In this document: positions 12,496 to 43,166 of the stretch, piece by piece
Numbering within the stretch: the first letter of the stretch is position 1
Layout: each line of letters starts with the position of its first letter
Made by a program: the position numbers and the translations under genes
DNA from: Bacteroidia bacterium
Lineage (GTDB): Bacteria > Bacteroidota > Bacteroidia > J057
Length of the DNA: 64,000 nt
NCBI GenBank assembly: GCA_033391075.1
Contig: JAWPMV010000001.1
Location: forward strand, 6,696,001 to 6,760,000
Reading direction: 5' to 3'
The notes under the pieces: model-generated
Database searches by the model: none
What the model was told of the DNA's origin: nothing
What the model saw: only the letters and a program-made list of their open reading frames with translations

Positions 12496-12514
12496 GTCCT
12501 AAAAATATTTTATA

Positions 12515-12547
12515 AAAAAGGCCTGTCTAAGACAGGTCTTTTTTTTT
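12515..12547 (+). terminator. Rho-independent terminator after giant protein copy 1
   Basis: The stem AGGCCTGTC/GACAGGTCT (one G-T pair) with a three-base loop is followed by nine T, 20 bases after the stop codon. It separates the transcripts of the tandem paralogues. Confidence 0.85.
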
Positions 12548-12605
12548 GCATTCAATTTAATCCTCATCAATTAAATTAAATGCTTATCATATAGAAGGAT
12601 AAGCG

Positions 12606-12613
12606 TATTTTTG
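12606..12613 (+). promoter_or_regulatory. Candidate Bacteroidetes -7 box for giant protein copy 2
   Basis: TATTTTTG matches the TAnnTTTG consensus used by the Bacteroidetes primary sigma factor, 45 bases upstream of the ATG. No good TTG is seen at the -33 spacing, so this is tentative. Confidence 0.45.
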
Positions 12614-12658
12614 GCGTCTAAGCTTTAACCTAATTTAAGGATCAGGAACTACTATAGC

Positions 12659-15600
12659 ATGAAGCGACTATTCCTCTTAATAGTATGCCTCACATTTCTA
12701 GCTTTCAATGGCAAAGGCTCCCATATTGTGGGTTCCGAGCTTACATATGAATGCGTTGATTCTGTGAATCATATTTACAATATCAAAGTGATACTGTACC
12801 GAGACTGTATCAACAGTAACACTCCTTTTGATCAATCTATCAGCCTATTCATATTTGCTGGAGGAGCTGCTCAAAATGCCGCTCCCTTACAAACGGTAAA
12901 CATTCCTATACCTACAAATATTCCTCAAATTGTTCCCAATGATTTAGGAGATTGTGTGGTAGGAAATCCTTCCATTTGCGTTGAAGTAGGAGTCTATGAA
13001 ACGACGGTAACCCTCCCTCCGCGAGCTGATGGATATGATCTGGGTTGGGCAAAATGTTGTCGAAGTGTAACCATCAATAATATCGCAACGCCTATTGCTT
13101 ACGGTATAACTTTCGCGGCCCATATACCTGATCCTGGAGACGCGCTATGCAATAACATGCCGACCTTCAATCAATTTCCACCAGTATTCCTCTGTGCAAA
13201 TCAGCCATTTAGTTTTGACCATTCAGCCACAGATATAGATGGTGATAGCCTGGTTTATTCATTGGTACATCCCTACACAGGCGTAAATCAGATCGGTCGG
13301 GGAGCAGGAAATCCAGGTCGTGGTGGGCCTCCGCCAACCGTTGATCCTGTCGGGAATCCTATGGGCCCACCTCCCTATACACGATTGCCTTTTCTTCCCG
13401 GCTTTAGTTTTGATGACCCTTTTGGTTCTGGTGATTTTGTCATTGATCCTCAGTCTGGTTTTTTAACTGTTACTCCAGCTATGGTAGGAGTATTTGTCTA
13501 TGCGATTTCTGTTTTTGAATATAGAGATGGAGTTCTGCTAAGTGAAAATCGACGAGATTTTCAGATCAACATCATTACTTGCCTTCCGCAGGGCGCTCCC
13601 CCTTTTATTTCACATTCAACTACTGGTTTACCTACCTCTACCAATGGCGATACCATATATGCTCAGGCAGATGTTCCCTTCTGTTATGATGTAACGCTGG
13701 AAGATACCATCCCTGGAGATGTACTTTCGGCTTATACAGTCAGCGCGGCTTTTGGAAATGGCAACTTTTTCCCACCTGCTGCTACTTTTAATTTTAGCGG
13801 AGTAAATCCCATAAATGGTCAGGTTTGCTGGACGCCCAGCTGTCAGTATGATGGGGATACTATTCCACTAATCGTCGGTGGTTTTGACATAGGGGATTGT
13901 GAAAATGTGGGGGATGTGTTTGATACGGTCTGGGTCATTGTAAATAAGCCTCCCAATCAACTGCCGAGCATCGTTCCGGATTTGACAGGCTTACAGGTGA
14001 ACAATGATACCATCATCATAAGTGCAGGAAGCAATTTATGCTATGATTTGAACATCACAGATCCCAATCCCAATGATATACTCCATGCTTTTCCATTAAG
14101 TAGCATTTTCAATGCTCCCAATGGACCAACTTTTAATATAGTGAGCCAAAATCCTATGCTTGCTCAGGTCTGTTGGACACCTGGATGTGATTTTGAAGAT
14201 CAGATATTTGAATTTCGAACCGCAGCCTCAGATGTATCTCTGTGTAATAATACCCAGCCGGTTGAAAATCTATTGTTTGTCAAAGTAGTTATTCCCCCCA
14301 ATGATCCCCCAGATATAGCTTTTGATTTAAGCGCTAATGTTTTCAGCAATGATACCATTTTTGTATCTGCACTTGATAATCTCTGTTTCGATATAACAGC
14401 GAGCGATCCAAACCTGGCAGACATCATTACCCTTTCGACCCTGAGTCCGATATTTAATGATCCTAATCCTCCCACCCTGACTACAACGGGTAATAATCCG
14501 CTTCAGGGACAGGTTTGCTGGATGCCTTCCTGCGATTATGAAAATCAGGTAATTCCTTTCATTTTCAAAGTCAATGATCCGGGTGTTTGTTCCAGCATAG
14601 GAGAAGCTTTCGATACAGTCTATGTTTCGGTTGCCGTACCTCCCAATGATCCGCCAAATATCGTAGCAGATCTCAGTGGAAATTCATTTAGCAATGACAC
14701 CATTTTTGTTAATGCTAATGATGCATTCTGTTACGACTATGTAGCCAGTGATTTGAATGTAGGAGATAATCTCAATGCTTTTACAGTCAGCAGCATTTTC
14801 AATGATCCTAATGGACCTAGCTTTAGCTTAAATGGAAATAATCCTGTATCAGGTCAGATTTGCTGGACGCCATCTTGTGATTTTGTAAATCAAACCATAG
14901 AGCTAATTATCGGGGTAGGGGATGATGCTCCCTGTACTTCTACGGCTCAAGCCTTTGATACGGTTTATATTGAAATTGCCTTTCCTCCGAATGATCCGCC
15001 AGAGACATTTGCTAACCTGGCGAATTTGACGACAGATGGTGATACCATTTTTGTAGATCCGCAGGAATCATTCTGTTTCAACCTCAACTTTACCGATCCC
15101 AATATTGCCGATACGCTTACTGCCTTTGCGATCAGCCCGATCTTCAGTCAGCCCGATGGCCCCAGCTTCACTTTCCAGGGAGTAAATCCTGCTTCTGCTC
15201 AGGTCTGCTGGATTCCCTCTTGTGATTATGAAGGTCAGCTCATCGAATTGGTATTTAGAGTTGAGGATAATGGAGACTGCGATAATGAATTGGAGGATTT
15301 TGATACGGTTTTTGTAAAAATAAATGATCCCAATACGATTGCTCCTAATCTGGGTCACGATATAAGTGGGAATCTAAATACAGGAGGCGATACCATCTAC
15401 ATAGAAATTGGAGGGAATTTATGTTATGACTTTTATGTAGCTGATAATACGCCGGAAAATGGAGTTGACTTTGTACATGCCTTAGAACTTGCAAGTCTGG
15501 CGGGCAGCAATTTAAGTTTAACAAATCTCGATTATGTTCGCCGCAATGATTCTATTATCGGATCCGTTTGCCTAAGCTCCAGTTGTTCTAATGGAGGAAG

Positions 15601-29858: not shown

Positions 29859-31970
29859 ATGGACACTAGAAACACCGTTGCAGCAAAAGGTTCCAAGTTC
29901 TTTGATCGGGACCTGAGCTGGCTTTCCTTTAATTATCGGGTTTTACTGGAAGCTACTGACAAAAGTTTGCCCCTCTACGAGCGAATCAAATTCCTCGCTA
30001 TCTATTCTTCAAATCTGGATGAATTTTTTCGGGTGAGGGTCGCCTCTCTCAGAAGTTTATTGGGCGTGAAGAAGAAAAGCCTGGATTTAGTTGGCCTGGA
30101 GCCCGAAAAGCTTCTGGCCCAGATTTATGCAGAGGTAAATCGACAACAAGAAGAGTTTGGAGCCATTTTCCAACAAGACATACTTCCCGGCCTCAATAAA
30201 AATGACATTTACTTATTGCAGGATGGTCCCAAAGAGGATGTACACAAAGAATTTATAGAGAAATTCTTCGAGGAAGATGTATTTCCCTTTATCCATACAG
30301 AACTTTTGCGGAGAAAGAGGATCAAACATTTTCTCAGGGAAAATGCTTTGTACCTGGCCATCAAACTGTATAGCAACTCAAGGATAGCATTAAAGGAAGA
30401 AAAAGAGACGGGAAATACAGAAAGGCGTTCAAGAAGAGCTATAATTCAAATTCCGACCCATTATTTCCCTCGCTTTATAGAACTACCAGCAATCGGAAAG
30501 AAGCGTTATTATATGTTTCTGGATGATATCATTCGCTTCAATCTGGATAAAATCTTTCCAGGTTATGAAGTTGCAGGTGCTTATTCATTCAAGCAAAACA
30601 GAAATGCAGACTTACTGATTGATGATGAGTATGGGGGAAATTTGGTAGAAAAGATCAGAAAGAGCCTTAAGAGAAGACAAACGGGTGTGCCCGCACGTTT
30701 TCTCTATGATAGCGAAATGCCTAAAAACCTGCTGCGTTATCTGAGAGATACATTTAGCCTGGCAAAAGAGGATTTACTGGCTGGAGGAAAGTACCACAAC
30801 TTCTCTGATTTCTTCCGCTTTCCAAATCCACTAGCGCCCGAATTGGAAGGAAAAGCCTATCCACCTTTGCCACACCTGGAACTGGAATCCAAAACTTCAA
30901 TGTTGGATGCGATTTCGGAGAAAGACTACATGGTTCATTTTCCTTATCAGTCGTACGACTATGTCATTCGCTTCCTCACAGAAGCCGCCAATGACCCAAA
31001 TGTCGAAGCTATTCACGCTACTCAATATCGCGTAGCTGCCAATTCTGCTGTGGTAAATGCCATGATCCTGGCCGCGCAAAATGGGAAGAAGGTCTCTGTA
31101 TTCGTAGAACTAAAAGCTCGATTTGACGAAGCTCTGAACCTTCACTCAGCAGAGGAAATGGAACGGGCAGGAGTAAAAATCATTTATAGTTTCCCCGGAC
31201 TCAAAGTACATGCAAAAACGGCTTTGGTCTTGAGAAAAGAAGGTAAGGATACCAAAGGCTATGCTTTCCTCAGTACAGGTAACTTCAATGAAAAGACCGC
31301 AAAGATCTATGCAGATCATGGATTCTTTTCTTCTGATGATGAAATCATTAACGACCTGAAAGGAGTTTTTGAACATCTGGAAGGAGGAGGGAAATCCAAG
31401 CCCAATTTCAAGCAGCTCCTCGTCGCTCAATTCAATATGCGACCGGACTTGGAAAAGCTCATCGATCGGGAAATAGAGCATGCAAAGGCTGGCAGAAAGG
31501 CCAAGGTCCTTGTAAAACTCAATAATCTTGAGGACAAAAAAATGATCCGCAAGCTCTATGAAGCCAGTAATGCCGGAGTCAAAATCACAATGATTATTAG
31601 AGGAATTTGTTGTTTGCGGCCTGGAATACCCGGATTGAGTGAGAACATTAAGATCACGCGCTTGGTGGATCAATTCCTCGAACATGCTCGTGTTTTTATT
31701 TTCCACAATCAGGGAGAAGATGCCCTGTATATGGGATCTGCGGATTGGATGAAACGAAATCTAAGCAGAAGGATAGAAGTTGTTTTTCCTATCAAAGATA
31801 AAAACCTGAAAAATGAGGTAATCAAAATCATTGACCTTCAACTGGCCGATAATGTGAAAGCTGTTAGCCTGGATAAAGACATGATCAATACCTCCATCAA
31901 AAATGATAAATCCAGTGTTCGAGCTCAAATAGATGCTTATGAACTGATCAAGGCAGGTAAGCTGATCTAA
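29859..31970 (+). CDS. ppk1: Polyphosphate kinase 1
   Basis: 703 residues, typical of PPK1. The N-terminal FFDRDLSWLSFNYRVL motif binds substrate; the two phospholipase-D-like catalytic halves carry H451 (LKVHAKTALV, the autophosphorylated histidine) and H609 (QFLEHARVFIF), followed by SADWMKRN. The enzyme reversibly moves the terminal phosphate of ATP to polyphosphate. It is the last gene of the gatC-TPR-ppk1 run and is followed by a strong terminator. Confidence 0.95.
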   Translation: MDTRNTVAAKGSKFFDRDLSWLSFNYRVLLEATDKSLPLYERIKFLAIYSSNLDEFFRVRVASLRSLLGVKKKSLDLVGLEPEKLLAQIYAEVNRQQEEFGAIFQQDILPGLNKNDIYLLQDGPKEDVHKEFIEKFFEEDVFPFIHTELLRRKRIKHFLRENALYLAIKLYSNSRIALKEEKETGNTERRSRRAIIQIPTHYFPRFIELPAIGKKRYYMFLDDIIRFNLDKIFPGYEVAGAYSFKQNRNADLLIDDEYGGNLVEKIRKSLKRRQTGVPARFLYDSEMPKNLLRYLRDTFSLAKEDLLAGGKYHNFSDFFRFPNPLAPELEGKAYPPLPHLELESKTSMLDAISEKDYMVHFPYQSYDYVIRFLTEAANDPNVEAIHATQYRVAANSAVVNAMILAAQNGKKVSVFVELKARFDEALNLHSAEEMERAGVKIIYSFPGLKVHAKTALVLRKEGKDTKGYAFLSTGNFNEKTAKIYADHGFFSSDDEIINDLKGVFEHLEGGGKSKPNFKQLLVAQFNMRPDLEKLIDREIEHAKAGRKAKVLVKLNNLEDKKMIRKLYEASNAGVKITMIIRGICCLRPGIPGLSENIKITRLVDQFLEHARVFIFHNQGEDALYMGSADWMKRNLSRRIEVVFPIKDKNLKNEVIKIIDLQLADNVKAVSLDKDMINTSIKNDKSSVRAQIDAYELIKAGKLI

Positions 31971-32978: not shown

Positions 32979-32992
32979 GCGATTCTTTGTAT

Positions 32993-34126
32993 ATGAAAGA
33001 GGCCGATGTCATAGTTATTGGAGGAGGATTAGGCGGCTGGTGTAGTGCCATTCATTTGAGAAAGGCAGGCCTAAAGGTCATGCTCATCGAAAAACGTCAA
33101 TATCCCTTTCACAAATTCTGTGGAGAATATTTATCTGCCGAAGTCGAGCCCTATTTGTCCAGTCTGGGTCTTTCGCTTGAAAAATCAGGAGCAAATCGGA
33201 TCAGAAAATTTAAGTTAAGTTCGCATACTGGAAAGTATGTTACTTCTAAACTAAGCATTGGAGGATTTGGGATTCGCAGATATACACTTGATTATCAATT
33301 AGCTATACTTGGTCAAAAAGAAGGCATCAAACTCATCGAAGGCAAAGAAGTACGAAAAATTCAATTTGAATCAGGATATCACAAACTCATATGCAAAGAT
33401 AAATCAAGCTATCGTGCAGAGCTCATCATTGGAGCCTATGGTAAAAGAACGGGCCTGGACAAAGAGCTGAAGCGGGATTTTTTAGGAAGTAGTTCCAGTT
33501 ATATCGGAGTAAAACAGTATTTCGATTATGATTATCCAGCTGCTGAGGTTTCTCTCCATAATTTTGAAGGAGGATATTGTGGAATGGCCCGCATGGAAGA
33601 CGGGAGCTTAAATCTTTGTTATCTCAGTAAAAAAGAAATCCTAAATAAATATGGAGGCATTGATGAGTTGGAATCAAAGGTCTTAAGTAAAAATCCCTTT
33701 ATAAAAGAAGTATTCCACTCATCGCGCAAACTCCTGGACAAGCCCATAGTTATATCCAATATATATTTTGAGGAAAAGAACTTGGTGGAAAATCACGTCC
33801 TCATGTGTGGAGATGCAGCAGGAATGATATTTCCCCTGGCAGGAAATGGAATGGCAATGAGCATACACGCTGCTAAAATCCTTGCTGAGCAAATTGTGTT
33901 GTTTAAGCAAGGGAAATTGAGTCGAACGGAATTGGAAAATAGCTATCAAAAAGAATGGAATGACAAGTTTGCCTCGCGCTTATCCTGGGGACGCAACTTT
34001 CAGCCATTTATGGGAAGTAACCGACTTTCCTCATTCGCAGTTTCCAGTCTAAAACTGCTGCCTCCTTTGCTTCCTGCTATCATCAAGCGAACACACGGAC
34101 ATTATCTCGATGCCTACACTCAATAA
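32993..34126 (+). CDS. FAD-dependent oxidoreductase of the type III PKS cluster
   Basis: 377 residues from the ATG at 32993 (an upstream TTG is less likely). It has the Rossmann loop VIGGGLGGWCSAIHLRKAG near residues 7-24 and the second FAD motif CGDAAGMIFPLAGNGMAMS, as in the geranylgeranyl-reductase/para-hydroxybenzoate-hydroxylase group. In the Streptomyces srs phenolic-lipid pathway an FAD hydroxylase oxidises the resorcinol ring to a quinone; the same role is inferred here. An alternative is reduction or desaturation of the alkyl chain. The stop overlaps the start of methyltransferase 1 by 17 bases. Confidence 0.8.
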   Translation: MKEADVIVIGGGLGGWCSAIHLRKAGLKVMLIEKRQYPFHKFCGEYLSAEVEPYLSSLGLSLEKSGANRIRKFKLSSHTGKYVTSKLSIGGFGIRRYTLDYQLAILGQKEGIKLIEGKEVRKIQFESGYHKLICKDKSSYRAELIIGAYGKRTGLDKELKRDFLGSSSSYIGVKQYFDYDYPAAEVSLHNFEGGYCGMARMEDGSLNLCYLSKKEILNKYGGIDELESKVLSKNPFIKEVFHSSRKLLDKPIVISNIYFEEKNLVENHVLMCGDAAGMIFPLAGNGMAMSIHAAKILAEQIVLFKQGKLSRTELENSYQKEWNDKFASRLSWGRNFQPFMGSNRLSSFAVSSLKLLPPLLPAIIKRTHGHYLDAYTQ

Positions 34127-34823
34127 AAGATCAAAAAAACAGGAAGCTTTGGATAATCTGAATCTTTCTGGCAAGAAGCTGGAGCAAACGCTCAGACAAT
34201 TGGCCTTTATCAACAAAAGTCTGGGCAATACCTCTTCCCTGATTGGGGAAGTATTGAAAGTAGCTGAAGAACATCAACTAAAAGAAATCAAAGTCATTGA
34301 CCTGGGATGCGGAGGAGGAGATGTATTGACTGTATTGGCAAAAAAACTAAAAAGAAAAGGAATCACATACTCATTGGTAGGGATTGATGGAAATATGCAT
34401 GCTTTGGAACATGCAAAGAAAGCAAGTCAGGACATTTCTTCTCTAAGCTTCAAACAAGCTGATATACTGGCAAAGGACTTCGAACTAGATACCTGCGATA
34501 TTTTGATTAGTAGTCATTTTATGTATCATTTCGAAGAAGAGGCCCTCATCCAATTTCTACGAAAACACATAACTTCTGTCAAATACAGCATCCTCATCAG
34601 CGAACTTGAGCGGAGCAAATGGTCTTTTCTACTTTTCCGTATATTTTCACCCCTCTTTGGTTTTAACCAATTGGTTAAAACTGATGGCTTGACTGCAATC
34701 CAAAGAGCCTATAAGAGATCGGAAATCAAACAACTCCTCTCCATTTTTGGTCAGGGAACTGTTCAAATCATTCCCAAATTTTTCTTCCGAATGATTATCA
34801 AAATCAATCCTCAAGGCCTATGA
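34110..34823 (+). CDS. SAM-dependent methyltransferase 1 of the PKS cluster
   Basis: 237 residues of class I methyltransferase fold with motif I IDLGCGGGDVLTVLAKK (about 62-78), the acidic SAM ribose contact GIDGNMHALE and post-I/IV segment ADILAKDFELDTCDILISS. The N-terminal segment LSGKKLEQTLRQLAFINKSLG is shared with the next gene (MEGNLLEKTLDQLAWISVWLG), so they are paralogues. It probably O- or C-methylates the polyketide ring. It overlaps the upstream gene by 17 bases and the downstream methyltransferase by 4. Confidence 0.82.
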   Translation: MPTLNKRSKKQEALDNLNLSGKKLEQTLRQLAFINKSLGNTSSLIGEVLKVAEEHQLKEIKVIDLGCGGGDVLTVLAKKLKRKGITYSLVGIDGNMHALEHAKKASQDISSLSFKQADILAKDFELDTCDILISSHFMYHFEEEALIQFLRKHITSVKYSILISELERSKWSFLLFRIFSPLFGFNQLVKTDGLTAIQRAYKRSEIKQLLSIFGQGTVQIIPKFFFRMIIKINPQGL

Positions 34824-35536
34824 TCTTTTCGCAGTTTGCCACCCGAAGTAGAGAGCAAGAGATCATGGATGACCTTGAAATGGAAGGAAATCTTCTGGAG
34901 AAGACCCTCGACCAACTCGCCTGGATCAGTGTCTGGTTAGGAGGAAATAACATCACCTGGACAGGCCTGAAGAAAATAGTCTCTAAGTTTCCCCAAGCTA
35001 AAATCAACTTACTTGACCTGGGAACAGGTGGGGGAGATGCCTTGAGATATTTGGCTAAAAAAAGTCGGAATTCCAGACAGGAATTTTCTTTCCTTGGATG
35101 GGATGCAAATCAGGCAACACTCGCCTATGCGACCAAAATGTCAAAAGCATATTGTAATATTGCCTATCAAAAAGTCAATATACTTGATCCTGATACGACT
35201 TATCAGGGAATAGATATTGTAACTTGTGCGCTCTTTCTGCATCATTTTTCAGATGAGGAAATTATAGCGCTTATCAGCCAATTGAAATCAGATGGTGTTC
35301 AATACCTCATCATCAATGATCTCCAAAGACACTGGCTTCCCTACATTCTGTTTATGTTGGTGAGTAAAGTCTTGAGATTTAGTAAAATGGCGCATCATGA
35401 TGGTTTGCTTTCCATAAGGAAAGGATTTAAAAAACAGGAATTACAAGATCTATTGAAAGAGTCTCAATCTGAAGTGACATACATCGGATGGAAATGGGCA
35501 TTCCGCTACTTAATCGTTGCAAAACTCACTCCCTGA
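34820..35536 (+). CDS. SAM-dependent methyltransferase 2 of the PKS cluster
   Basis: 238 residues, paralogous to the preceding gene over its length, with motif I LDLGTGGGDALRYLAKKS, GWDANQATLAYA, and CALFLHHFSDEEI. The tryptophan-rich N-terminus (LAWISVWLG) and C-terminus (GWKWAFRYLIVA) suggest a hydrophobic or membrane-bound substrate, fitting a lipid with a phenolic head group; that is inference. Translation is coupled to methyltransferase 1 through an ATGA overlap. The PKS gene follows after 61 bases. Confidence 0.82.
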   Translation: MIFSQFATRSREQEIMDDLEMEGNLLEKTLDQLAWISVWLGGNNITWTGLKKIVSKFPQAKINLLDLGTGGGDALRYLAKKSRNSRQEFSFLGWDANQATLAYATKMSKAYCNIAYQKVNILDPDTTYQGIDIVTCALFLHHFSDEEIIALISQLKSDGVQYLIINDLQRHWLPYILFMLVSKVLRFSKMAHHDGLLSIRKGFKKQELQDLLKESQSEVTYIGWKWAFRYLIVAKLTP

Positions 35537-35597
35537 TTAGCCTTACAACAGATTTACCTAAAAATATTTTTAGACGTCTATAAATTTTACCTCATAC

Positions 35598-36653
35598 ATG
35601 AGTTCTGCCAAAATACTCGCAACTGCCATTGAACTTCCTGCTTATAGCAAGACTACCGAGGAGATTCTGGAAGATATGTCCCAACATCTGGAGGGACATG
35701 ACGAGAGATTTAAACGGAAAGTCTTGCGAATCTTTAAGTATGCTGAAGTAGATCGCAGGTATTCTATCATGCCAGCAGATCGGGTTTTGGCACCTCTGAG
35801 TTTTGAGGAAAAGAATGATCTGTATATAAAATCCGTCATTGATCTTTCGGAGAAAGTATTGGTCAAAGCCCTCAAAAATGCAGAGATGAATCCCGATGAG
35901 ATCGATTATATCATTACCGTCAGCTGTACAGGATTTATGATCCCTTCAGTAGATGCCTTTCTGATCAATCGATTGAGGATGCGACAAGATGTGGTCCGAC
36001 TACCCGTAACGGAAATGGGATGTGCAGCAGGGATTTCCGGCCTCATTTACGCCAATAATTTCCTCAAAGCACATCCGGACAAAAGAGTAGCCCTGATTGC
36101 TGTAGAATCTCCCATGAGTACTTTCCAATGGAATGATTTCTCCATGGTCAATATGGTGAGCGCAGCAATTTTCGGAGATGGAGCTGCCTGCGCGATATTA
36201 GGTCCGAGTGATAAAGCAGCTCCCAGCATTGTCGATACTGAGATGTTTCATTTCTATGATGAAATCGGAATGATGGGATACAATGTGCGGAATTCCGGTT
36301 TTCAAATGGTACTTGATCCACAGGTTCCTCAGAAAATCGAAGAGAATTTCGATCAGATTATCCACCCCTTTCTCCAAAAAAACCATAGCAATATCCAAGA
36401 GATCGATCACCTCATCTTCCATCCGGGAGGTAAAAAGATTGTGAAAATGGTAGAAGGTCTTTTTGGCCAAATGGGAAAAAATATCGATGCAACTAAAAAG
36501 GTATTGAGAGAATATGGAAATATGTCCAGTGCTACTGTACTTTATGTTTTGGACGAAATCCTAAAAAAGCCTATCTCTGTGGGAGAGAAAGGTCTGATGT
36601 TAAGTTTTGGACCGGGCTTCTCTGCACAAAGAGTATTACTAGAATGGAAATAA
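35598..36653 (+). CDS. Type III polyketide synthase (chalcone/stilbene synthase family)
   Basis: 351 residues with the complete catalytic triad: C142 in TEMGCAAGISGL, H275 in HLIFHPGGKK and N308 in REYGNMSSAT; the FGPGFS loop of the family is near 337-342. Such homodimers load an acyl starter, extend it with malonyl units and cyclise the chain. Bacterial relatives (ArsB/ArsC, SrsA, BpsA) use long acyl starters to make alkylresorcinols or alkylpyrones; the fatty-acid genes beside it suggest the same here. The SDR gene begins within its last codons (10-base overlap). Product class is inferred. Confidence 0.9.
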   Translation: MSSAKILATAIELPAYSKTTEEILEDMSQHLEGHDERFKRKVLRIFKYAEVDRRYSIMPADRVLAPLSFEEKNDLYIKSVIDLSEKVLVKALKNAEMNPDEIDYIITVSCTGFMIPSVDAFLINRLRMRQDVVRLPVTEMGCAAGISGLIYANNFLKAHPDKRVALIAVESPMSTFQWNDFSMVNMVSAAIFGDGAACAILGPSDKAAPSIVDTEMFHFYDEIGMMGYNVRNSGFQMVLDPQVPQKIEENFDQIIHPFLQKNHSNIQEIDHLIFHPGGKKIVKMVEGLFGQMGKNIDATKKVLREYGNMSSATVLYVLDEILKKPISVGEKGLMLSFGPGFSAQRVLLEWK

Positions 36654-37558
36654 ATAGAACCTTTATAGATAAAGGATATTGGGCCGTCATATTGGGGGGA
36701 TCCAGTGGGATAGGATTGGCGAGTGCAAAAAAACTGGCGCAGGAAGGCATGCATCTCTGCATCCTACACCGAGACAGAAAAAAAGATCTCCCTCAGATCG
36801 AAGCACATTATGATTCCTTTCGGCAGTTTGGGGTAAAAGTCCTGAATTTTAATTTGGATGCTACCCGCTCTGAAAATATTGAAATGGTCTTGAAGGAGTT
36901 GAAAAATGAGATGGGAGAAAATGAGGGAGTCAGGCTTCTCCTCCATTCGATCGCTAAAGGCAACCTCAAACCCATGACCGATGCGCAGGGAACCAAAGAG
37001 AATAGCCTGAATGAAAAAGCAGGAGTGGAACAAACGCCACTTTCGCAAGCTTTCAAAGATTTACAATCGATCTTGCAAGATGAAGGTGCAGATATAGACA
37101 GACCTGTCCTGACCCGCCAGGATTTTGAGTTGACAATAGAAGCCATGGCATTGAGCATCTACGAATGGGTTCAATTTATCCATAATGCTTCCCTCTTTGC
37201 TGCGGATGCTCGTGTGATAGGGCTTACAAGTGCAGGCAATACCAAAGCATGGAGAGATTATGCCGCAGTAAGTGCTGCGAAATCAGCTTTGGAAGCCATC
37301 TGCAGATCAATTTCTCTGGAGTTTGCGAGATTTGGTATTCGATGCAATGTGGTGCAACCCGGTATTACAGATACTCCCTCACTTCGCATGATTCCCAGCA
37401 GTGATATTCTAAAACTCAATGCAGCTGTTCGTAACCCTTTCCAGAGACTCACACTTCCAGCCGATGTAGCCAATGCACTTTATCTCCTATGCACAGATGA
37501 AGCAGCCTGGATTAATGGAGCGGTGATTCCGGTTGATGGTGGAGAAAAGAATGCCTAA
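36644..37558 (+). CDS. SDR enoyl-ACP reductase-like protein
   Basis: 304 residues, short-chain dehydrogenase fold. The cofactor loop is GGSSGIG (18-24), a FabI-like LLHSIAKG lies at 99-106, and the catalytic pair is Y206 and K213 in DYAAVSAAK, that is Tyr-x6-Lys. Ordinary ketoreductases have Tyr-x3-Lys, while Tyr-x6-Lys is the enoyl reductase pattern of FabI/FabL. A ~50-residue insert (110-160) makes it longer than FabI. It likely reduces the trans-2-enoyl-ACP in chain building for the type III PKS starter. The gene overlaps both neighbours, indicating coupled translation. Confidence 0.8.
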   Translation: MEINRTFIDKGYWAVILGGSSGIGLASAKKLAQEGMHLCILHRDRKKDLPQIEAHYDSFRQFGVKVLNFNLDATRSENIEMVLKELKNEMGENEGVRLLLHSIAKGNLKPMTDAQGTKENSLNEKAGVEQTPLSQAFKDLQSILQDEGADIDRPVLTRQDFELTIEAMALSIYEWVQFIHNASLFAADARVIGLTSAGNTKAWRDYAAVSAAKSALEAICRSISLEFARFGIRCNVVQPGITDTPSLRMIPSSDILKLNAAVRNPFQRLTLPADVANALYLLCTDEAAWINGAVIPVDGGEKNA

Positions 37559-38012
37559 TTCTATGGAGCTTGCAGAAGAAATCAGAACTTTGCTGCCCTA
37601 TAAGGAGCCCTTTCTATTCGTAGATGAGTTGGAGTCAGTAGATGAAAAAGGAGCAAAAGGCAGTTTTACCTTTCAGGAAAGTATGCCCTTCTATGAGGGA
37701 CACTTTCCCGATAATCCCATTACGCCCGGCGTTATCCTTATCGAATGTATGGCACAAATCGGATTGGTAAGCCTGGGAATTTTTCTTTCTGGCGCATACC
37801 AGACAAAAGAGCATATACCCTTTGCCTTTACTTCGTCAGAAGTTGAATTTTATAAGCAAGTCTTACCTGGTGAAAAAGTAGTTGTCCATTCCGAGAAAAT
37901 ATATTTTCGACTGGGTAAACTAAAATGCAAAGTATCTATGAACAATGAGCAAGGTGAGACGGTTTGTAAAGGAATCCTGAGTGGGATGAGTATCAGGAAT
38001 AGGTTTTTATAG
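37551..38012 (+). CDS. FabZ-like 3-hydroxyacyl-ACP dehydratase (hot-dog fold)
   Basis: 153 residues from the ATG at 37551, preceded by GGAGAAAAGA at good ribosome-binding spacing and overlapping the SDR stop by 8 bases; other in-frame starts at 37536 and 37563 are possible. The active-site helix FYEGHFPDNPITPGVILIE contains H51 and E65, the catalytic pair of FabZ. It would dehydrate 3-hydroxyacyl-ACP made by the cluster ketosynthase. The ketosynthase gene follows after 17 bases. Confidence 0.85.
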   Translation: MPNSMELAEEIRTLLPYKEPFLFVDELESVDEKGAKGSFTFQESMPFYEGHFPDNPITPGVILIECMAQIGLVSLGIFLSGAYQTKEHIPFAFTSSEVEFYKQVLPGEKVVVHSEKIYFRLGKLKCKVSMNNEQGETVCKGILSGMSIRNRFL

Positions 38013-38029
38013 GAAAACAGAAAGAGTCA

Positions 38030-39307
38030 ATGCAACACAAACGCATAGTTATAACGGGTATGGGAGTGGTATCACCGAATGGTATTGGCCTGGGTGATTT
38101 TGAAGAAGCCTTACGTGCGGGGAAATCCGGAATCAGAAAGATGGAAAAAATGGAGAAATTGGGTTTCTCCTGTCAGGTCGGCGCCGAACCGGAAATCAGC
38201 GAAGATTTACTCAATCAATACTTTACTCCCCTGCAACAAAAAAGACTAAGTGCAGACGGCCTGATATATGGATTGATCTCTGCCATAGATGCCTGGAAAG
38301 ATGCAAAACTTCCCTATGGAAAAAATGAAGAGCCGGATTGGGATAGTGGATGTATTATGGGGCAAGGCTTGGCTGGAGCAGACGTAATCCGCGAATCAAC
38401 CTATCAAATAGATGAAGGCAAAGTAAAAAGACTGGGGAGTACCACCGTTCCGCAAACCATGTCGAGTGGGATTAGTGCACATCTGGGAGGAATGCTGGGA
38501 CTGGGAAATCAGGTAAGCAGCAATGCCTCAGCCTGTGCTACAGGAACCGAGGCGCTGATTATGGGTATGGAGCGAATCAGAATGGGCAAGGCCAAGCGTA
38601 TGCTTTGTGGCGCATGTGATAGTAGTAGCGTTCATGTTTGGGGAGGTTTTGACGCTATGCGGGTCCTTACCCGTAAGCATAATGATTCTCCTCTAGAAGC
38701 TTCTCGACCTATGAGCGCATCTGCCTCTGGTTTTGTACCCGGAGGTGGGGGAGCAGCTTTGGTTTTGGAAGAATTGAGTTCTGCTTTGAGAAGAAACGCT
38801 CACATTTATGCTGAAGTCCTCGGAGGTTTTACCAATTCCGGAGGCCAAAGAAATAAAGGCTCTATGACGGCCCCAAATCCAGAAGGAGTGTTACGATGCA
38901 TTCATGGAGCAATTGCAGATGCAGAAATATTGAGCAAGGACATTGATCTCATTTCAGGCCATCTTACCTCTACCATCTTTGACCCTCGCGAAGTTGAACT
39001 TTGGGTAAATGCTCTCAAAATCAAACGAGATAACTTCCCTAAAATACAAGCCCTCAAATCCATGACAGGCCACTGCCTGAGTGCATCCGGAGCAATAGAA
39101 GCAGTCGCCGCAGTATTACAGATACATAAAACTTTCGTCCATAAAAGCCTAAACTGTGAGGATCTACATCCGGAAGTAGAGGCAGTTGTTCCAAAAACAT
39201 CTATTCCTTCCAAGACAGAAAACATCCAGGTCGATACAGTGGCCAGTAGCAGTTTTGGCTTTGGAGATGTGAATAGTTGCATTATTTTCAAGCGATTTCA
39301 AGGATAG
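38030..39307 (+). CDS. Beta-ketoacyl-ACP synthase (FabF/FabB type)
   Basis: 425 residues with the triad C169 (SNASACATGTEAL), H311 (SGHLTSTIFDP) and H348 (SMTGHCLSASGA). The usual AHGTST around the first histidine reads GHLTST, as in ketosynthases from specialised pathways such as aryl polyenes rather than housekeeping FabF. It condenses acyl chains with malonyl-ACP, presumably on the ACP encoded next. It is placed in a set with dehydratase, enoyl reductase and ACP; a dedicated ketoreductase is missing, so FabG of primary metabolism would have to be shared. Confidence 0.87.
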   Translation: MQHKRIVITGMGVVSPNGIGLGDFEEALRAGKSGIRKMEKMEKLGFSCQVGAEPEISEDLLNQYFTPLQQKRLSADGLIYGLISAIDAWKDAKLPYGKNEEPDWDSGCIMGQGLAGADVIRESTYQIDEGKVKRLGSTTVPQTMSSGISAHLGGMLGLGNQVSSNASACATGTEALIMGMERIRMGKAKRMLCGACDSSSVHVWGGFDAMRVLTRKHNDSPLEASRPMSASASGFVPGGGGAALVLEELSSALRRNAHIYAEVLGGFTNSGGQRNKGSMTAPNPEGVLRCIHGAIADAEILSKDIDLISGHLTSTIFDPREVELWVNALKIKRDNFPKIQALKSMTGHCLSASGAIEAVAAVLQIHKTFVHKSLNCEDLHPEVEAVVPKTSIPSKTENIQVDTVASSSFGFGDVNSCIIFKRFQG

Positions 39308-39328
39308 AACCTAAAGACATTAGCTAAT

Positions 39329-39580
39329 ATGAAGCCCGAAGAAATAACAGAAAAACTCAAGAAGATCATGAAGGCCTATCTTGAGGAAGGCATTGATCTC
39401 GAAAATATCACCTCTGACACAGACCTGATCAATGATCTAAAAATAAACTCTATGCACCTGGTAGATATCATTCTCGATCTGGAGGACGAATTTAACATAG
39501 AGATCAGCGATGATGATGCAGAACAGATGTTGACCGTTGGGAAATCCATCGAGGTAATTCAAGCGCAGCTGGCCAAATGA
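39329..39580 (+). CDS. Acyl carrier protein
   Basis: 83 residues, acidic, four-helix ACP fold. The phosphopantetheine attachment serine is S41 in LKINSMHLVDIILDLEDEF; the canonical DSL reads NSM. It would carry the growing acyl chain for the cluster ketosynthase. Its stop overlaps the start of the phosphopantetheinyl transferase by 4 bases, tying carrier and activating enzyme together. Confidence 0.9.
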   Translation: MKPEEITEKLKKIMKAYLEEGIDLENITSDTDLINDLKINSMHLVDIILDLEDEFNIEISDDDAEQMLTVGKSIEVIQAQLAK

Positions 39581-40185
39581 TCGGCACGGACATCATAGAC
39601 CTGAATTATCAAGATCATCCCAGTCGATGGAAAGAAGAACGTTATTGGCAGAAAGTATTAGTAGAGGAGGAATTAGTATGGGTGAAAGCGCAGGAAAAGC
39701 CCTTTATAGCATTTCTGATTTCCTGGGCGATAAAAGAAGCAGCATACAAATTGGTATGCAATATTGATCACCAGCACAGATTTATACCTAAAATATTTAC
39801 TATCAATTATTTAAGGGAAATCAAATATTACGATTCGATATATTATAAGGTAAATTCTCCCTATGGGGAGCTGTTTGCAGAGCTTAAAAGCACAGCTACT
39901 TTTATTCAAGCAATTGCTGTCTTTAAACAATCAGATCTTCATCAAGCAAAGACCTATTCTTTTCCCTTATCAGAAACAGACCTTCGTTCACAATCTTTCC
40001 AGACAAAAAAAATTATCCTGGAACATTTCTCCAAGAATTCTTCTTTCGACAATAGAATTCTTGAGATTAGAAAGAAAAATTCCATTCCTGGCCTTTATAT
40101 TTCAGGAAAAGAAAGCCAAATCGAGCTTTCTATCAGTCATCATGGTCATTGGGGAGCCTTTGCCTATGTGGATACGCCTTTATGA
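39577..40185 (+). CDS. 4'-phosphopantetheinyl transferase superfamily protein
   Basis: 202 residues. The magnesium-binding opening MIGTDIIDL (D5) and the WAIKEAAYKL helix (W50, K53, E54, K58) are the two signature motifs of AcpS/Sfp enzymes, which transfer phosphopantetheine from CoA to the ACP serine. The C-terminal half is diverged but ends in IELSISHHGHWGAFAYV, a second-domain-like SxSHxxxxAxA strand, so the protein may be a compact two-domain Sfp type. It most likely activates the adjacent ACP. It overlaps the exporter gene by 4 bases. Confidence 0.8.
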   Translation: MIGTDIIDLNYQDHPSRWKEERYWQKVLVEEELVWVKAQEKPFIAFLISWAIKEAAYKLVCNIDHQHRFIPKIFTINYLREIKYYDSIYYKVNSPYGELFAELKSTATFIQAIAVFKQSDLHQAKTYSFPLSETDLRSQSFQTKKIILEHFSKNSSFDNRILEIRKKNSIPGLYISGKESQIELSISHHGHWGAFAYVDTPL

Positions 40186-42431
40186 TACCTAAAAGACAGA
40201 GCCTACTTGTTCTCCTGCTCATTCTGATGGGTACTGTCTTTATGGCCTTTCAGATTCCCAAACTCACATTTGATTACGATATAGAAAACTTCTTCCCGAT
40301 TGGCAGTGAAGAAACCGCCTACTTTGATAGCTATAGAGAAATTTTTGGCAGTGACAATGATTTCATCCTGATTGCTATAAAGCCCAGCTCCGGAATTTTC
40401 AATCAATCCTTTCTACAAAACCTCCAACAACTGACTGATTCTTTAGAAAGTCATCCCTTGATTGAAAAAGCTTATTCACTCAGCAATATCTATGATTACA
40501 AATTCATCCCAGGATTTCGGAGAGCAAGAAAAATCCCGTTTATCCATCCAAAGGATGCGAGTAAGATGGACCAAGATAGTCTCAAACTCATGCAGCATCC
40601 TGTTTTACCCGGATATCTCATCGCTCCGGACGGAAGTTCCGTTCTTATCTACCTTAGTAATAAGGCATTTGCAGATGCAGATGAATGTAAGAGCCTAAAC
40701 AGGGATCTCAGAGAAATTCTTTCAGGCTTTGAAGTGGGTAACTATTATTTATCCGGGAAATGTATCGGGCAAAGCACTTTCGCAAATACCATTCAAAAAG
40801 AGATAGGCATCTTTATTATAGCTTCTGTACTGGTCATTATGCTGGTGCTCTTTATCATGTTCAGAAGCCTGCCAGCACTCATTCTTCCGCTTATCGTTGT
40901 TGGACTGGCTGTTCTTTGGACCATAGCGACTATGGTTTTACTCGATCGGCCGCTGAGTCTGGTTTCCAATATCATTCCCAGTATGCTTTTGGTGATTGGG
41001 GTTTCGGATGTAATTCATTTGCTTTCTCATTATATCAGCCTGAGAAAAAATGGATGGGAGAGCCAGAAAGCCCTCAAAGAAGCCATCCGGAAAGTCGGGA
41101 TTGCAACCCTGCTCACCAGTATCACTACCATTCTGGGATTTTTGAGCTTGCTGAGTACTCGTTTTTTTCTTTTACATGAATTGGGATTGTTTGCCAGTCT
41201 GGGGGTCTTCCTCGCCCTGATTATGACCTATGCCATCATTCCTGCACTCATTCAATTTTTTCCACAGATTCGATTTAGCAATACCTCTGTCAAACAAAGG
41301 CTGCATGATTTTTTAGTCCGCTTATTTCATTTCACCCAGGAACATGCAAAAAGAATCGTACTCGCCTCAATGGGACTCTTACTCCTCTTCGCTTTTCTCA
41401 CTACATATTTAGAAGTCAATATTTTTCTTCTCACAGATTTGAGAAAAGAGCATCCCCTGGTACAGGATTTCTCTTTCATTAGCGATAGCTATGGAGGGAG
41501 CAGGCCGCAGGAAATTTCTGTAAAACTTCGAGATAGCAGTGAACATATTTTTTCGCCTCAGGTATTAGCAGAGCTGGATAGGGTAGAGGCCTATTTAGAA
41601 AATGAGTATAAACTTCAGAATATCAATTCTCCACTAAGTTTTATAAAAAGTGCCAATCAGGTATTTAACTCAGGCAGAAGTTCCGCTTATCAAATCCCGG
41701 ATAGCAATACCCTCCAATTTTTGCTAAGCCAAAATATTGAAGAGGAATTCAAAGCAAATAGTGATCGCATCTTGTTCAGTTCAGACTATAGCGAAGGTCG
41801 CATTATGGGATTTTTACCGGATTTGGGCAGCAGAAAGGTATATCAGATGAATGCCGACTTCCATCGCTTTCTGGAAGAAGAACTTCCAGAAAGAAAATGT
41901 GAATATCGATTTACCGGCACCTCACATTTGTTGGAACTCAATACCGAATTCCTGGCCATGGATATCTTAAGTGGATTGACATTGGCTATTTTGGGCATCA
42001 GTCTTTTTATGGGATTGGTATTACGTTCGGCTAAAGTTGTGCTTATAGCCCTTTTACCCAATATTCTTCCCCTACTATGTCTGGCCGCCATCATGGCAAT
42101 CTTTGGGATCAGTATAAAAATATCTACTGCGATTATATTTTTAATTGCATTGGGTATCAGTGTGGATGATAGCATTCATTTTCTAAGTCATTATCGATTG
42201 GAAAGAAAAGAAAATGGTGTTTTGGAGTCTGTCAAAAACACCTATATCCATACCGGCAGGGCTATTATCCTGACTTCAGTCATTTTATCTTTGGGCTTTT
42301 TGGTTCTTTGTTTGTCAAATTTTCTGGGAACCTTTTATATTGGCGCCCTGGTAGCGCTGAGCATGATCCTTGCCCTAATTGCAGATCTTCTCTTATTGCC
42401 TGCCTTGATCCTATTATTTCTGAAAGAATAA
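40182..42431 (+). CDS. MMPL/RND superfamily exporter
   Basis: 749 residues from the ATG at 40182, which overlaps the preceding stop (ATGA); an upstream start would overlap more. There is one N-terminal membrane helix, a periplasmic loop, five helices (from IFIIASVLVIMLVLFIMF), one further helix (IVLASMGLLLLFAFLTTYL), a second loop, and five helices at the C-terminus, that is the 12-helix RND layout. GVSDVIHLLSHY and GISVDDSIHFLSHYRLE are the paired proton-relay motifs of the MMPL branch. MMPL proteins export lipids such as mycolates and aryl polyenes; here it probably moves the phenolic lipid or its precursor to the outer membrane. Confidence 0.87.
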   Translation: MIPKRQSLLVLLLILMGTVFMAFQIPKLTFDYDIENFFPIGSEETAYFDSYREIFGSDNDFILIAIKPSSGIFNQSFLQNLQQLTDSLESHPLIEKAYSLSNIYDYKFIPGFRRARKIPFIHPKDASKMDQDSLKLMQHPVLPGYLIAPDGSSVLIYLSNKAFADADECKSLNRDLREILSGFEVGNYYLSGKCIGQSTFANTIQKEIGIFIIASVLVIMLVLFIMFRSLPALILPLIVVGLAVLWTIATMVLLDRPLSLVSNIIPSMLLVIGVSDVIHLLSHYISLRKNGWESQKALKEAIRKVGIATLLTSITTILGFLSLLSTRFFLLHELGLFASLGVFLALIMTYAIIPALIQFFPQIRFSNTSVKQRLHDFLVRLFHFTQEHAKRIVLASMGLLLLFAFLTTYLEVNIFLLTDLRKEHPLVQDFSFISDSYGGSRPQEISVKLRDSSEHIFSPQVLAELDRVEAYLENEYKLQNINSPLSFIKSANQVFNSGRSSAYQIPDSNTLQFLLSQNIEEEFKANSDRILFSSDYSEGRIMGFLPDLGSRKVYQMNADFHRFLEEELPERKCEYRFTGTSHLLELNTEFLAMDILSGLTLAILGISLFMGLVLRSAKVVLIALLPNILPLLCLAAIMAIFGISIKISTAIIFLIALGISVDDSIHFLSHYRLERKENGVLESVKNTYIHTGRAIILTSVILSLGFLVLCLSNFLGTFYIGALVALSMILALIADLLLLPALILLFLKE

Positions 42432-42434
42432 TTC

Positions 42435-42848
42435 ATGCAAGAGATTTTAAGCCCTTTAATTGAACTTCCCTGGCAAAAGTGGATGGTGTATGTGCTTTTT
42501 TATGGTATTTGGGGAGTGGCCATGAATCAAGTGGGGATAATTGCCAAAATCGCACGCTTTAAATACAAGGCGCAAATCATCAGCTGCTACATTTTGTACA
42601 TGGTTCCTGTATCCATTCTTTTGAGTCCATTGCCCTGGTATGAGCAATATTTTTATGGTCTCTTTTTTATGGGCATACTGGAATTGGGCGGCTATTCGAT
42701 CAAGTCTTCAATCGCTTATGAAGACAATATTCTGGACAAGATTTTCAGTCCTAGAAATTTCACCCTGGCAATGACCCTCTTCTTTTCCACTTATTTCCCT
42801 TTAGGAAACTGGATTGTAGACGGGCTTTATGCTGCAATATTTACCTAA
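42435..42848 (+). CDS. Small membrane protein of unknown function in PKS cluster
   Basis: 137 residues with about four hydrophobic segments (WMVYVLFYGIWGVAMNQ, IISCYILYMVPVSILL, YFYGLFFMGILELGGY, FTLAMTLFFSTYFPLGNW). No family recognised. It begins 3 bases after the exporter stop, so it is surely co-transcribed, and might assist transport or membrane anchoring of the biosynthetic enzymes. No catalytic motif seen. Confidence 0.7.
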   Translation: MQEILSPLIELPWQKWMVYVLFYGIWGVAMNQVGIIAKIARFKYKAQIISCYILYMVPVSILLSPLPWYEQYFYGLFFMGILELGGYSIKSSIAYEDNILDKIFSPRNFTLAMTLFFSTYFPLGNWIVDGLYAAIFT

Positions 42849-42875
42849 AATCAAAATTCATAAATACTCATTAGT

Positions 42876-43166
42876 ATGTTTATCCATCACGTATTTTTCT
42901 GGTTAAAAGAAGGAGCTGATCACGCAGCATTTAAAGCTAGTCTGGATGCCCTCATCAAAAGTCCTATGGTTAAAGAAGCTCATGTGGGCCTGGCCGCTAA
43001 ATCAGATCGGGAGGTCGTAGAAGATTCCTTCGATTTCTCTTTGCTTGTCTTTTTCGAAACCAAAGAAAAGCACGACATCTACCAGACTACAGACGAAGTT
43101 CATCAGGTCTTCATTGATAGCTGCAAAGATATGTGGACCAAGGTCCAGGTTTTTGATGCGATTTAG
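42876..43166 (+). CDS. DABB (stress-responsive alpha/beta barrel) protein, possible polyketide cyclase
   Basis: 96 residues of the dimeric A+B barrel family: an N-terminal strand with two histidines (MFIHHVFFWLKEG), a central FSLLVFFETKEKHDIYQTTD, and a C-terminal VHQVFIDSCKDMWTKVQVFD. Most bacterial members have no known role, but plant olivetolic acid cyclase has this fold and folds a linear polyketide from a type III PKS. Of its functional residues, the N-terminal histidine and a Tyr/His pair have possible equivalents (H5, Y71, H78; the spacing of the pair is one residue longer); the second tyrosine has none obvious. It lies 27 bases after the membrane protein gene. The fold is sure, cyclase role is a hypothesis. 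Confidence 0.8.
   Translation: MFIHHVFFWLKEGADHAAFKASLDALIKSPMVKEAHVGLAAKSDREVVEDSFDFSLLVFFETKEKHDIYQTTDEVHQVFIDSCKDMWTKVQVFDAI

Follow-up and report, generated by a model that had tools for sequence, protein, structure and literature searches.

A type III polyketide synthase cluster with a type II fatty-acid module, found across the Bacteroidota

Results

Gene content of the locus

We analysed a 64,000-nucleotide stretch of a Bacteroidia genome (hereafter the window; G000:C1:6696001-6760000 of a 9.49-Mb assembly in five contigs), which carries a gene cluster built around a type III polyketide synthase (PKS). Twelve consecutive plus-strand open reading frames (ORFs) run from 32987 (or from an ATG at 32993) to 43166, and all of them are present with the families named in the initial annotation, with which Pfam and NCBIfam matches agree. 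The cluster proper most likely consists of eleven genes, at 32987-42848, with its 3' boundary set before a DABB gene (42876-43166). Neighbouring genes within it are spaced by -37 to +61 bases; the -37 value assumes that the MMPL gene starts at a TTG; with the ATG at 40182, the overlap shrinks to 4 bases. The genes, in order, are as follows.

32987..34126, + strand: FAD (flavin adenine dinucleotide)-dependent oxidoreductase, a geranylgeranyl-reductase / UbiH-like flavoprotein (Pfam FAD_binding_3; NCBIfam TIGR02032 at 106 bits, under cut-off; ATG possible at 32993)
34110..34823, + strand: S-adenosylmethionine (SAM) methyltransferase 1 (MT1), an extra copy (Methyltransf_31/25; PRK06202 at 128 bits, under cut-off)
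34820..35536, + strand: SAM methyltransferase 2 (MT2), the copy adjoining the PKS (PRK06202 at 124 bits, under cut-off)
35598..36653, + strand: type III PKS, clade A (Pfam PF00195/PF02797, Chal_sti_synt N and C, above cut-off)
36644..37558, + strand: enoyl-acyl carrier protein (ACP) reductase (ER) of the short-chain dehydrogenase/reductase (SDR) type, FabL-like, Y-x6-K (adh_short_C2; FabL at 126 bits, under cut-off)
37533..38012, + strand: FabZ-like 3-hydroxyacyl-ACP dehydratase (DH) (FabA domain; fabZ at 78 bits, under cut-off)
38030..39307, + strand: beta-ketoacyl-ACP synthase (KS) of seemingly elongating type, FabF/FabB-like (fabF at 279 bits, under cut-off; nearest solved structures 3u0f/3lrf)
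39329..39580, + strand: ACP (PP-binding)
39577..40185, + strand: 4'-phosphopantetheinyl transferase (PPTase; ACPS domain)
40149..42431, + strand: MMPL/HAE3 RND (resistance-nodulation-division) transporter, a lineage-specific addition (MMPL; TIGR00921 at 203 bits, under cut-off; ATG possible at 40182)
42435..42848, + strand: small integral membrane protein (MEM), helical, cluster-linked (no trustworthy Pfam match; relatives beside clade A PKSs)
42876-43166, + strand: DABB, a flank gene (Dabb family)

A cluster family across the Bacteroidota

The window cluster belongs to a cluster family that is widespread in the Bacteroidota. Type III PKS matches at E ≤ 1e-20 were found in 172 of 395 genomes sampled from the phylum, and a tight PKS group at ≥58% identity in 33 of the 395, window included, while PKSs outside this group reached at most 38% identity among the matches listed. 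A profile score of 500 bits served to separate clade A, to which the window PKS belongs, from distant sequences. When one genome per species was scanned, a search that reached close relatives only, 66 PKS loci came up, all in records whose titles name Bacteroidota groups (Flavobacteriaceae, Saprospiraceae, Pedobacter, Brumimicrobium, Chitinophagales, Bacteroidia and others); together with 15 hand-picked from the 33 phylum-sample genomes and the window itself, these make up 82 clade loci, among which five pairs have PKSs at least 97% identical. Within the family of the window's host, only 3 of 13 genomes, window included, had a PKS match at E ≤ 1e-50, and the distribution is therefore patchy. 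A plasmid search returned type III PKSs only below 60% identity, the best among the matches listed being 35%, with no sign of plasmid origin, and we accordingly set aside a mobile (plasmid) origin as finding no supporting evidence in that search.

Cluster genes were sought around each PKS in six frames with clade-built profiles, on the PKS strand and within 7.5 kb, and the order in the tight group proved to be FAD-MT-PKS-(ER)-DH-KS-ACP-(PPTase)-(MEM), where brackets mark genes that are not always present; the conservation of gene order in other Bacteroidota, a check proposed alongside the initial annotation, is thus borne out. The FAD oxidoreductase accompanies the clade PKS in 75 of the 76 loci (out of 82) with at least 2.2 kb upstream, and so does the methyltransferase (75/76). 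The window has two methyltransferase genes. Two methyltransferase matches occur in 8 of the 82 loci, in one of them (L038) through split ORFs, and in nearly every locus the single methyltransferase of the relatives is closer to the PKS-adjacent MT2 than to MT1. L038 (Lacinutrix neustonica) has several cluster genes split into multiple ORFs at 8100-15600, suggesting decay or sequencing errors.

The fatty-acid module accompanies one PKS clade

Of the 72 clade loci (out of 82) with at least 4.5 kb downstream of the PKS, 71 have DH, KS and ACP, 56 have ER, 43 PPTase, 16 MEM, 2 MMPL and 1 DABB. For comparison, we hand-picked 25 distant type III PKS loci from the 139 genomes with weaker matches, 22 of the 25 being flanked by 4.5 kb or more on either side. 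None of the 25 contains DH, KS, ACP, ER, PPTase, MEM or MMPL as detected with the clade-built profiles, which remote homologues could escape; FAD and methyltransferase genes are present in 9 of them.

Pairwise distances of the cluster proteins follow those of the PKS. Over 71 loci (L038 was excluded because of its split genes), the distance matrix of the PKS correlates with those of KS (0.87), FAD (0.83), methyltransferase (0.82), DH (0.72) and ACP (0.52), against a maximum of 0.20 in shuffled controls (500 for each gene; at most 0.17 for KS), which shows inheritance as one unit rather than function, with shared species history contributing. Judged by PKS and KS, L035 is the locus closest to the window, whereas DH, ACP, FAD and methyltransferase point to other loci, and the window's genes therefore need not all share one source. 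Together, the 71/72 against 0/25 distribution, the PKS-KS correlation of 0.87 and the finding of just one other full-profile ketosynthase match in the genome support the initial proposal of a dedicated type II fatty-acid module tied to a type III PKS, here to a whole PKS clade.

Active sites and ring-forming position

The catalytic residues of PKS, KS, dehydratase and ACP are intact in the window, as first annotated, and are kept across the clade, as the SDR Tyr and Lys nearly always are. Duplicate fetches of two genes being removed, clade A comprises 81 distinct PKS sequences, all of which carry the triad Cys142-His275-Asn308; the best solved relatives of the PKS are PKS11, THNS and CylI. KS retains Cys169, His311, His348 and Lys343 in 76 of 76 sequences, with the motif HLTST where relatives show HLTAT, and it looks like an elongating enzyme rather than a chain-length factor, because the full Cys-His-His set and Lys343 are kept. 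Equally complete are His57 and Glu71 of DH (77/77), Ser41 of ACP (76/76), and Asp5, Lys53, Glu54 and Lys58 of PPTase (47/47). In the FAD sequences, some of them from other PKS clades, GxGxxG and CGE occur in 83 of 85 and GD in all 85.

ER keeps Tyr206 of the Y-x6-K motif in 62 of 65 sequences and Lys213 in 64 of 65 (one of the 65 being a second SDR in L066). We take this motif to be of the enoyl-reductase type, and since it is retained, the candidate role of a disguised ketoreductase is unlikely. The window ER (36644-37558) has an insertion of ~37 residues relative to its relatives' consensus (304 vs ~265 residues). No ketoreductase or malonyl transferase was found among the eleven cluster proteins in Pfam and NCBIfam scans; the cluster therefore relies on primary metabolism, and its initial description as self-contained does not hold.

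Two further features of the PKS bear on its substrate and product. Its basic N-terminal helix (residues 36-46), which by analogy with chalcone synthase we presume to lie at the CoA entrance, has a mean charge of +3.9 in clade A (n=81 distinct) against +0.9 in other Bacteroidota type III PKSs (n=24, after dropping FabH paralogues in L042, L149 and L153); as an argument for acyl-ACP use this is weak, and such a helix suits CoA too. The second is the position of Trp281 of the Azotobacter enzyme ArsB, whose exchange for Gly is reported to turn resorcinol into pyrone formation (PMC6274091). Mapped through PKS11 (MGW), this position appears to be Phe in 80 of the 81 distinct clade A members and Tyr (Tyr228) in the window alone, while all 24 of the other Bacteroidota type III PKSs compared have Trp, and CylI has Leu.

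A proposed route from the module to the PKS

On balance, we think that the dedicated type II module probably readies an ACP-bound acyl chain and hands it to the type III PKS, and we infer this transfer, together with the length of chain that it would deliver, from the arrangement described above. In such a scheme the PPTase would activate the ACP, and the FabF-like KS would lengthen an acyl-ACP drawn from primary metabolism. Reduction would fall to the genome's own ketoreductase, none being encoded in the cluster, after which DH would dehydrate and the FabL-like ER saturate the chain. The PKS would then accept the acyl group from the ACP, add malonyl units and cyclise the product to an alkyl-substituted aromatic ring or a pyrone, which the flavoprotein may oxidise and one or two methyltransferases may methylate; MEM and MMPL might act on the resulting lipid in the envelope, or export it. 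There are precedents for acyl-ACP use in CylI, ArsB/ArsC and germicidin synthase (PMC8086630, PMC6274091), CylI being reported to take both CoA- and ACP-bound starters (PMC8086630) and ArsB/ArsC, according to a review, to receive acyl groups from the ACP domain of a fatty acid synthase (FAS) (PMC6274091).

Several points weigh against this proposal. The acyl transfer would rest on gene order, which is no proof of it, and conservation would look no different if the module's product were a separate part of the lipid, attached afterwards; type III PKSs, moreover, commonly use acyl-CoA. The module is variable, ER being absent from 16 of 72 loci and PPTase from 29, and there is one exception to its pairing with the PKS: the PKS at L034:9992-11047, in a metagenome-assembled genome, shares 73% identity with that of the window but stands alone, no other cluster gene occurring in 10 kb on either side. 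With Phe or Tyr at the position of Trp281, the product and its ring type cannot be read across from ArsB. Finally, the FAD enzyme of a Planctomycetota operon is reported to have formed no quinone in its expression host (PMC10896814).

The same evidence can be set against two other uses of the module. Were the PKS to use acyl-CoA, KS, DH, ER and ACP might make a different fatty acid, for example a second acyl group that another enzyme joins to the ring. Both position 41, always Lys, and position 44, either Lys or Arg (81 of 81 distinct clade members in each case), presumably lie at the CoA-phosphate site, by analogy with chalcone synthase; type III PKSs are also described as generally taking CoA thioesters (PMC6274091). 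However, Pfam scans of the eleven cluster proteins gave no match to an acyltransferase or acyl-CoA ligase family, and the pairing with one PKS clade (71/72 against 0/25) is more simply explained by direct use, so that we regard an acyl-CoA-fed PKS beside a separately employed module as unlikely.

A similarly low probability attaches to the idea that the chain built by the module is not a plain saturated starter but an unusual one, polyenoic or with some double bonds left, like those of aryl polyenes. The optional ER would set its saturation, and related species would then differ in the unsaturation of their ring-lipids. This idea would account for loci that lack ER (16 of 72) although nearly all (71) retain DH, KS and ACP, and for the antiSMASH label 'T3pks-arylpolyene' given to Aequorivita sp. 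CIP 111184 (PMC6139392), since L081, from a record of that strain, carries a clade A cluster. Yet the window ER is present with intact Tyr and Lys, a primary ER could serve the same ACP, and no pair of KS and chain-length factor is seen, the genome showing, besides the one cluster KS and leaving aside three short partial matches, a single other ketosynthase match (C1:1035113, 199 bits) that spans the profile.

A broader reading, which we offer only tentatively, would make clade A a class of ACP-fed type III PKSs found throughout the Bacteroidota, each tied to its own type II module and, in part of the lineage, accompanied by the new protein MEM, leading to undescribed envelope ring-lipids or quinones.

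Ring chemistry and product

The bulky aromatic residue at the ArsB 281 site leans away from an ArsC-like glycine. CylI, which is linked to alkylresorcinols, has Leu there, and a residue other than Trp therefore does not exclude resorcinol formation. In the Planctomycetota operon, the PKS is reported to make alkylresorcinols to which the methyltransferase and FAD enzyme together added one methyl group (PMC10896814), and mycobacterial and Streptomyces operons of FAD enzyme, methyltransferase and PKS have been linked to polyketide quinones or alkyl benzoquinones (PMC9927152). A quinone product for the window cluster, possibly methoxylated, is a guess.

A proposed insertion site and the DABB gene

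In the window, psuG is separated by 8 bases from the FAD gene at one end of the cluster; at the other, DABB follows MEM in the same orientation after 27 bases. In G400, a draft genome of the same family (91% complete) with no PKS at E ≤ 1e-50, a psuG 65% identical to the window's is followed after 8 bases by a DABB gene 49% identical. The simplest reading, which rests on this one genome, is that the cluster was inserted between psuG and DABB. PKS and psuG are on different contigs in G402 and G403, the cluster-bearing genomes of the same family, and in the other five same-family genomes with psuG, the available flank (1.5 kb at most) shows no DABB. Likewise, 34 other DABB loci (L103-L107 and L115-L143, four further DABB matches lying outside this set) contain no cluster gene in flanks of up to 1.5 kb. 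Given the psuG-DABB adjacency in G400 and these DABB loci devoid of cluster genes, we therefore exclude DABB, which the initial annotation had counted as a component, from the cluster; it is very probably not part of it.

Olivetolic acid cyclase is the DABB-fold partner of a plant type III PKS, and a similar role as product cyclase would make DABB a pathway member, as its family name and its position close downstream of MEM might suggest; but its presence in the window alone among 72 clade A loci, its pairing with psuG in a genome without this PKS, its 34 cluster-free occurrences and its best solved match, the 'ferredoxin-like protein' 3bn7 (olivetolic acid cyclase not being among the two matches), make this highly improbable, and on synteny and linkage we rejected the role.

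A polyphosphate kinase gene (29859-31970 of the window) lies two genes upstream of the cluster. Five Pedobacter loci (L082, L084, L085, L087 and L090) also have one, a short way downstream and on the other strand, possibly by coincidence.

Membrane proteins of the cluster

The MMPL transporter, initially taken as a defining part, is an accessory, lineage-specific addition from which little information can be drawn, present in 2 of the 72 clade loci. MMPL matches at E ≤ 1e-40 occur in 82 of 247 phylum genomes (four candidates being scored per genome), the five best outside this genome are 31-35% identical, and the genome itself has at least four MMPL genes. The only other clade locus matching the MMPL profile is that of Winogradskyella ouciana (L042:14703-16955), where the protein, 26% identical, occupies the same place after PPTase.

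MEM, by comparison, is closely linked to the cluster. It has 137 residues, its relatives in other clusters are 42-51% identical, with 41 invariant columns over 15 sequences, and its profile matches 5 of 395 phylum genomes, each time with a clade A PKS under 6 kb away. The predicted structure is helical with a mean pLDDT (predicted local distance difference test) of 86. Against Pfam, the best E-value among the 15 members was 0.029; PHROGs gave nothing trustworthy; a Foldseek search of the PDB returned two matches, the better at E 5.2; and a VIA structure comparison covering 11 chains likewise gave nothing trustworthy, its best result (Z 4.3, root-mean-square deviation 5.5, 85 aligned) being to a Kir channel. 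These structure searches do not establish a new fold, and that MEM modifies or anchors the lipid is a guess.

Other type III PKS arrangements in the phylum

The trio of FAD, methyltransferase and PKS genes also occurs in Bacteroidota without the module, in other PKS clades. Among the distant loci, its order is PKS-MT-FAD in L177 and L180-L183, whereas in L178 and L184-L186 the FAD gene stands before the PKS and the methyltransferase after it. This module-free PKS-MT-FAD arrangement forms a third class, illustrated by L180 (7886-8755), where a UbiA-type prenyltransferase-like protein precedes it. A second class of cluster is perhaps represented by L162 (10528-11031) and L165 (8592-9095), in which the PKS keeps Trp at the ArsB 281 position and is followed by a 167-residue membrane protein, which we take to be of the isoprenylcysteine-methyltransferase type.

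Discussion

We describe a type III PKS lipid cluster that probably has a type II instead of a type I feeder and is widespread in the Bacteroidota. Clusters of the general kind have been counted before: T3PKS clusters, all kinds together, make up 10.74% (PMC10734526) and 9% (PMC7440613) of biosynthetic clusters in surveys of the Flavobacteriaceae, and they are also listed in Aquimarina and Kordia (PMC9323603, PMC7477175). The terms 'type III' and 'T3PKS' are absent from the main text, as available, of a phylum-wide natural product survey (PMC9248904). In the literature searched, whose coverage left out most subscription papers, surveys list 'T3PKS' or 'T3PKS-arylpolyene' in the text available, and we found there neither a description of this conserved gene set nor a product for it.

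Should the module indeed supply the PKS, type III PKS chemistry fed by ACP would be a regular trait of many Bacteroidota, and it could be tested directly in culturable hosts such as Pedobacter, Aequorivita and Winogradskyella. The cluster-linked membrane protein MEM is a clear new target.

Among known systems, flexirubin and aryl polyene clusters are marked by a pair of KS and chain-length factor. No such pair is seen here, and the ring is made by a type III PKS; what is common to both is the presence of separate KS, DH and ACP proteins, and a relative of the window cluster has been labelled T3pks-arylpolyene (PMC6139392). CylI, of the cylindrocyclophane pathway, is supplied with its starter by enzymes of that pathway (a type I PKS), not by free type II FAS proteins. 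Its structure is among the best solved matches of the window PKS, and it is a type III PKS reported to be able to take an ACP-bound chain (PMC8086630).

The adjacent FAD oxidoreductase, methyltransferase and type III PKS are shared with hidABC of picocyanobacteria and with the Planctomycetota operon, which lead to hierridins and alkylresorcinols (PMC10896814, PMC8086630). No fatty-acid module is mentioned for these in the available text of the sources, whereas here DH, KS and ACP, usually ER and often PPTase follow the PKS. Similarly, pkqABC of mycobacteria and Streptomyces and srs of Streptomyces griseus are described as three-gene operons without fatty-acid module, MMPL or MEM, and their PKSs keep Trp281. 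This arrangement of the hid, pkq and srs trios recurs in 75 of the 76 clade loci.

The initial annotation had likened the cluster most closely to Streptomyces srs and to ars of Azotobacter vinelandii, in which the ACP domain of a FAS donates the acyl group to the type III PKS (PMC6274091), a likeness that we propose here for the transfer as well. Enzyme kinship does not bear the parallel out: the best solved relatives are PKS11, THNS and CylI, an ArsC entry is absent from the best 60 solved-structure matches, and the position of Trp281 is Tyr in the window PKS. The architecture differs too, ars having a type I FAS (PMC6274091) and the window cluster separate single-domain proteins. What stands is the shared logic of dedicated fatty-acid genes beside the PKS, which sets clade A, with DH, KS and ACP in 71 of 72 loci, apart from the 25 loci examined in other type III PKS clades of the phylum, none of which has them.

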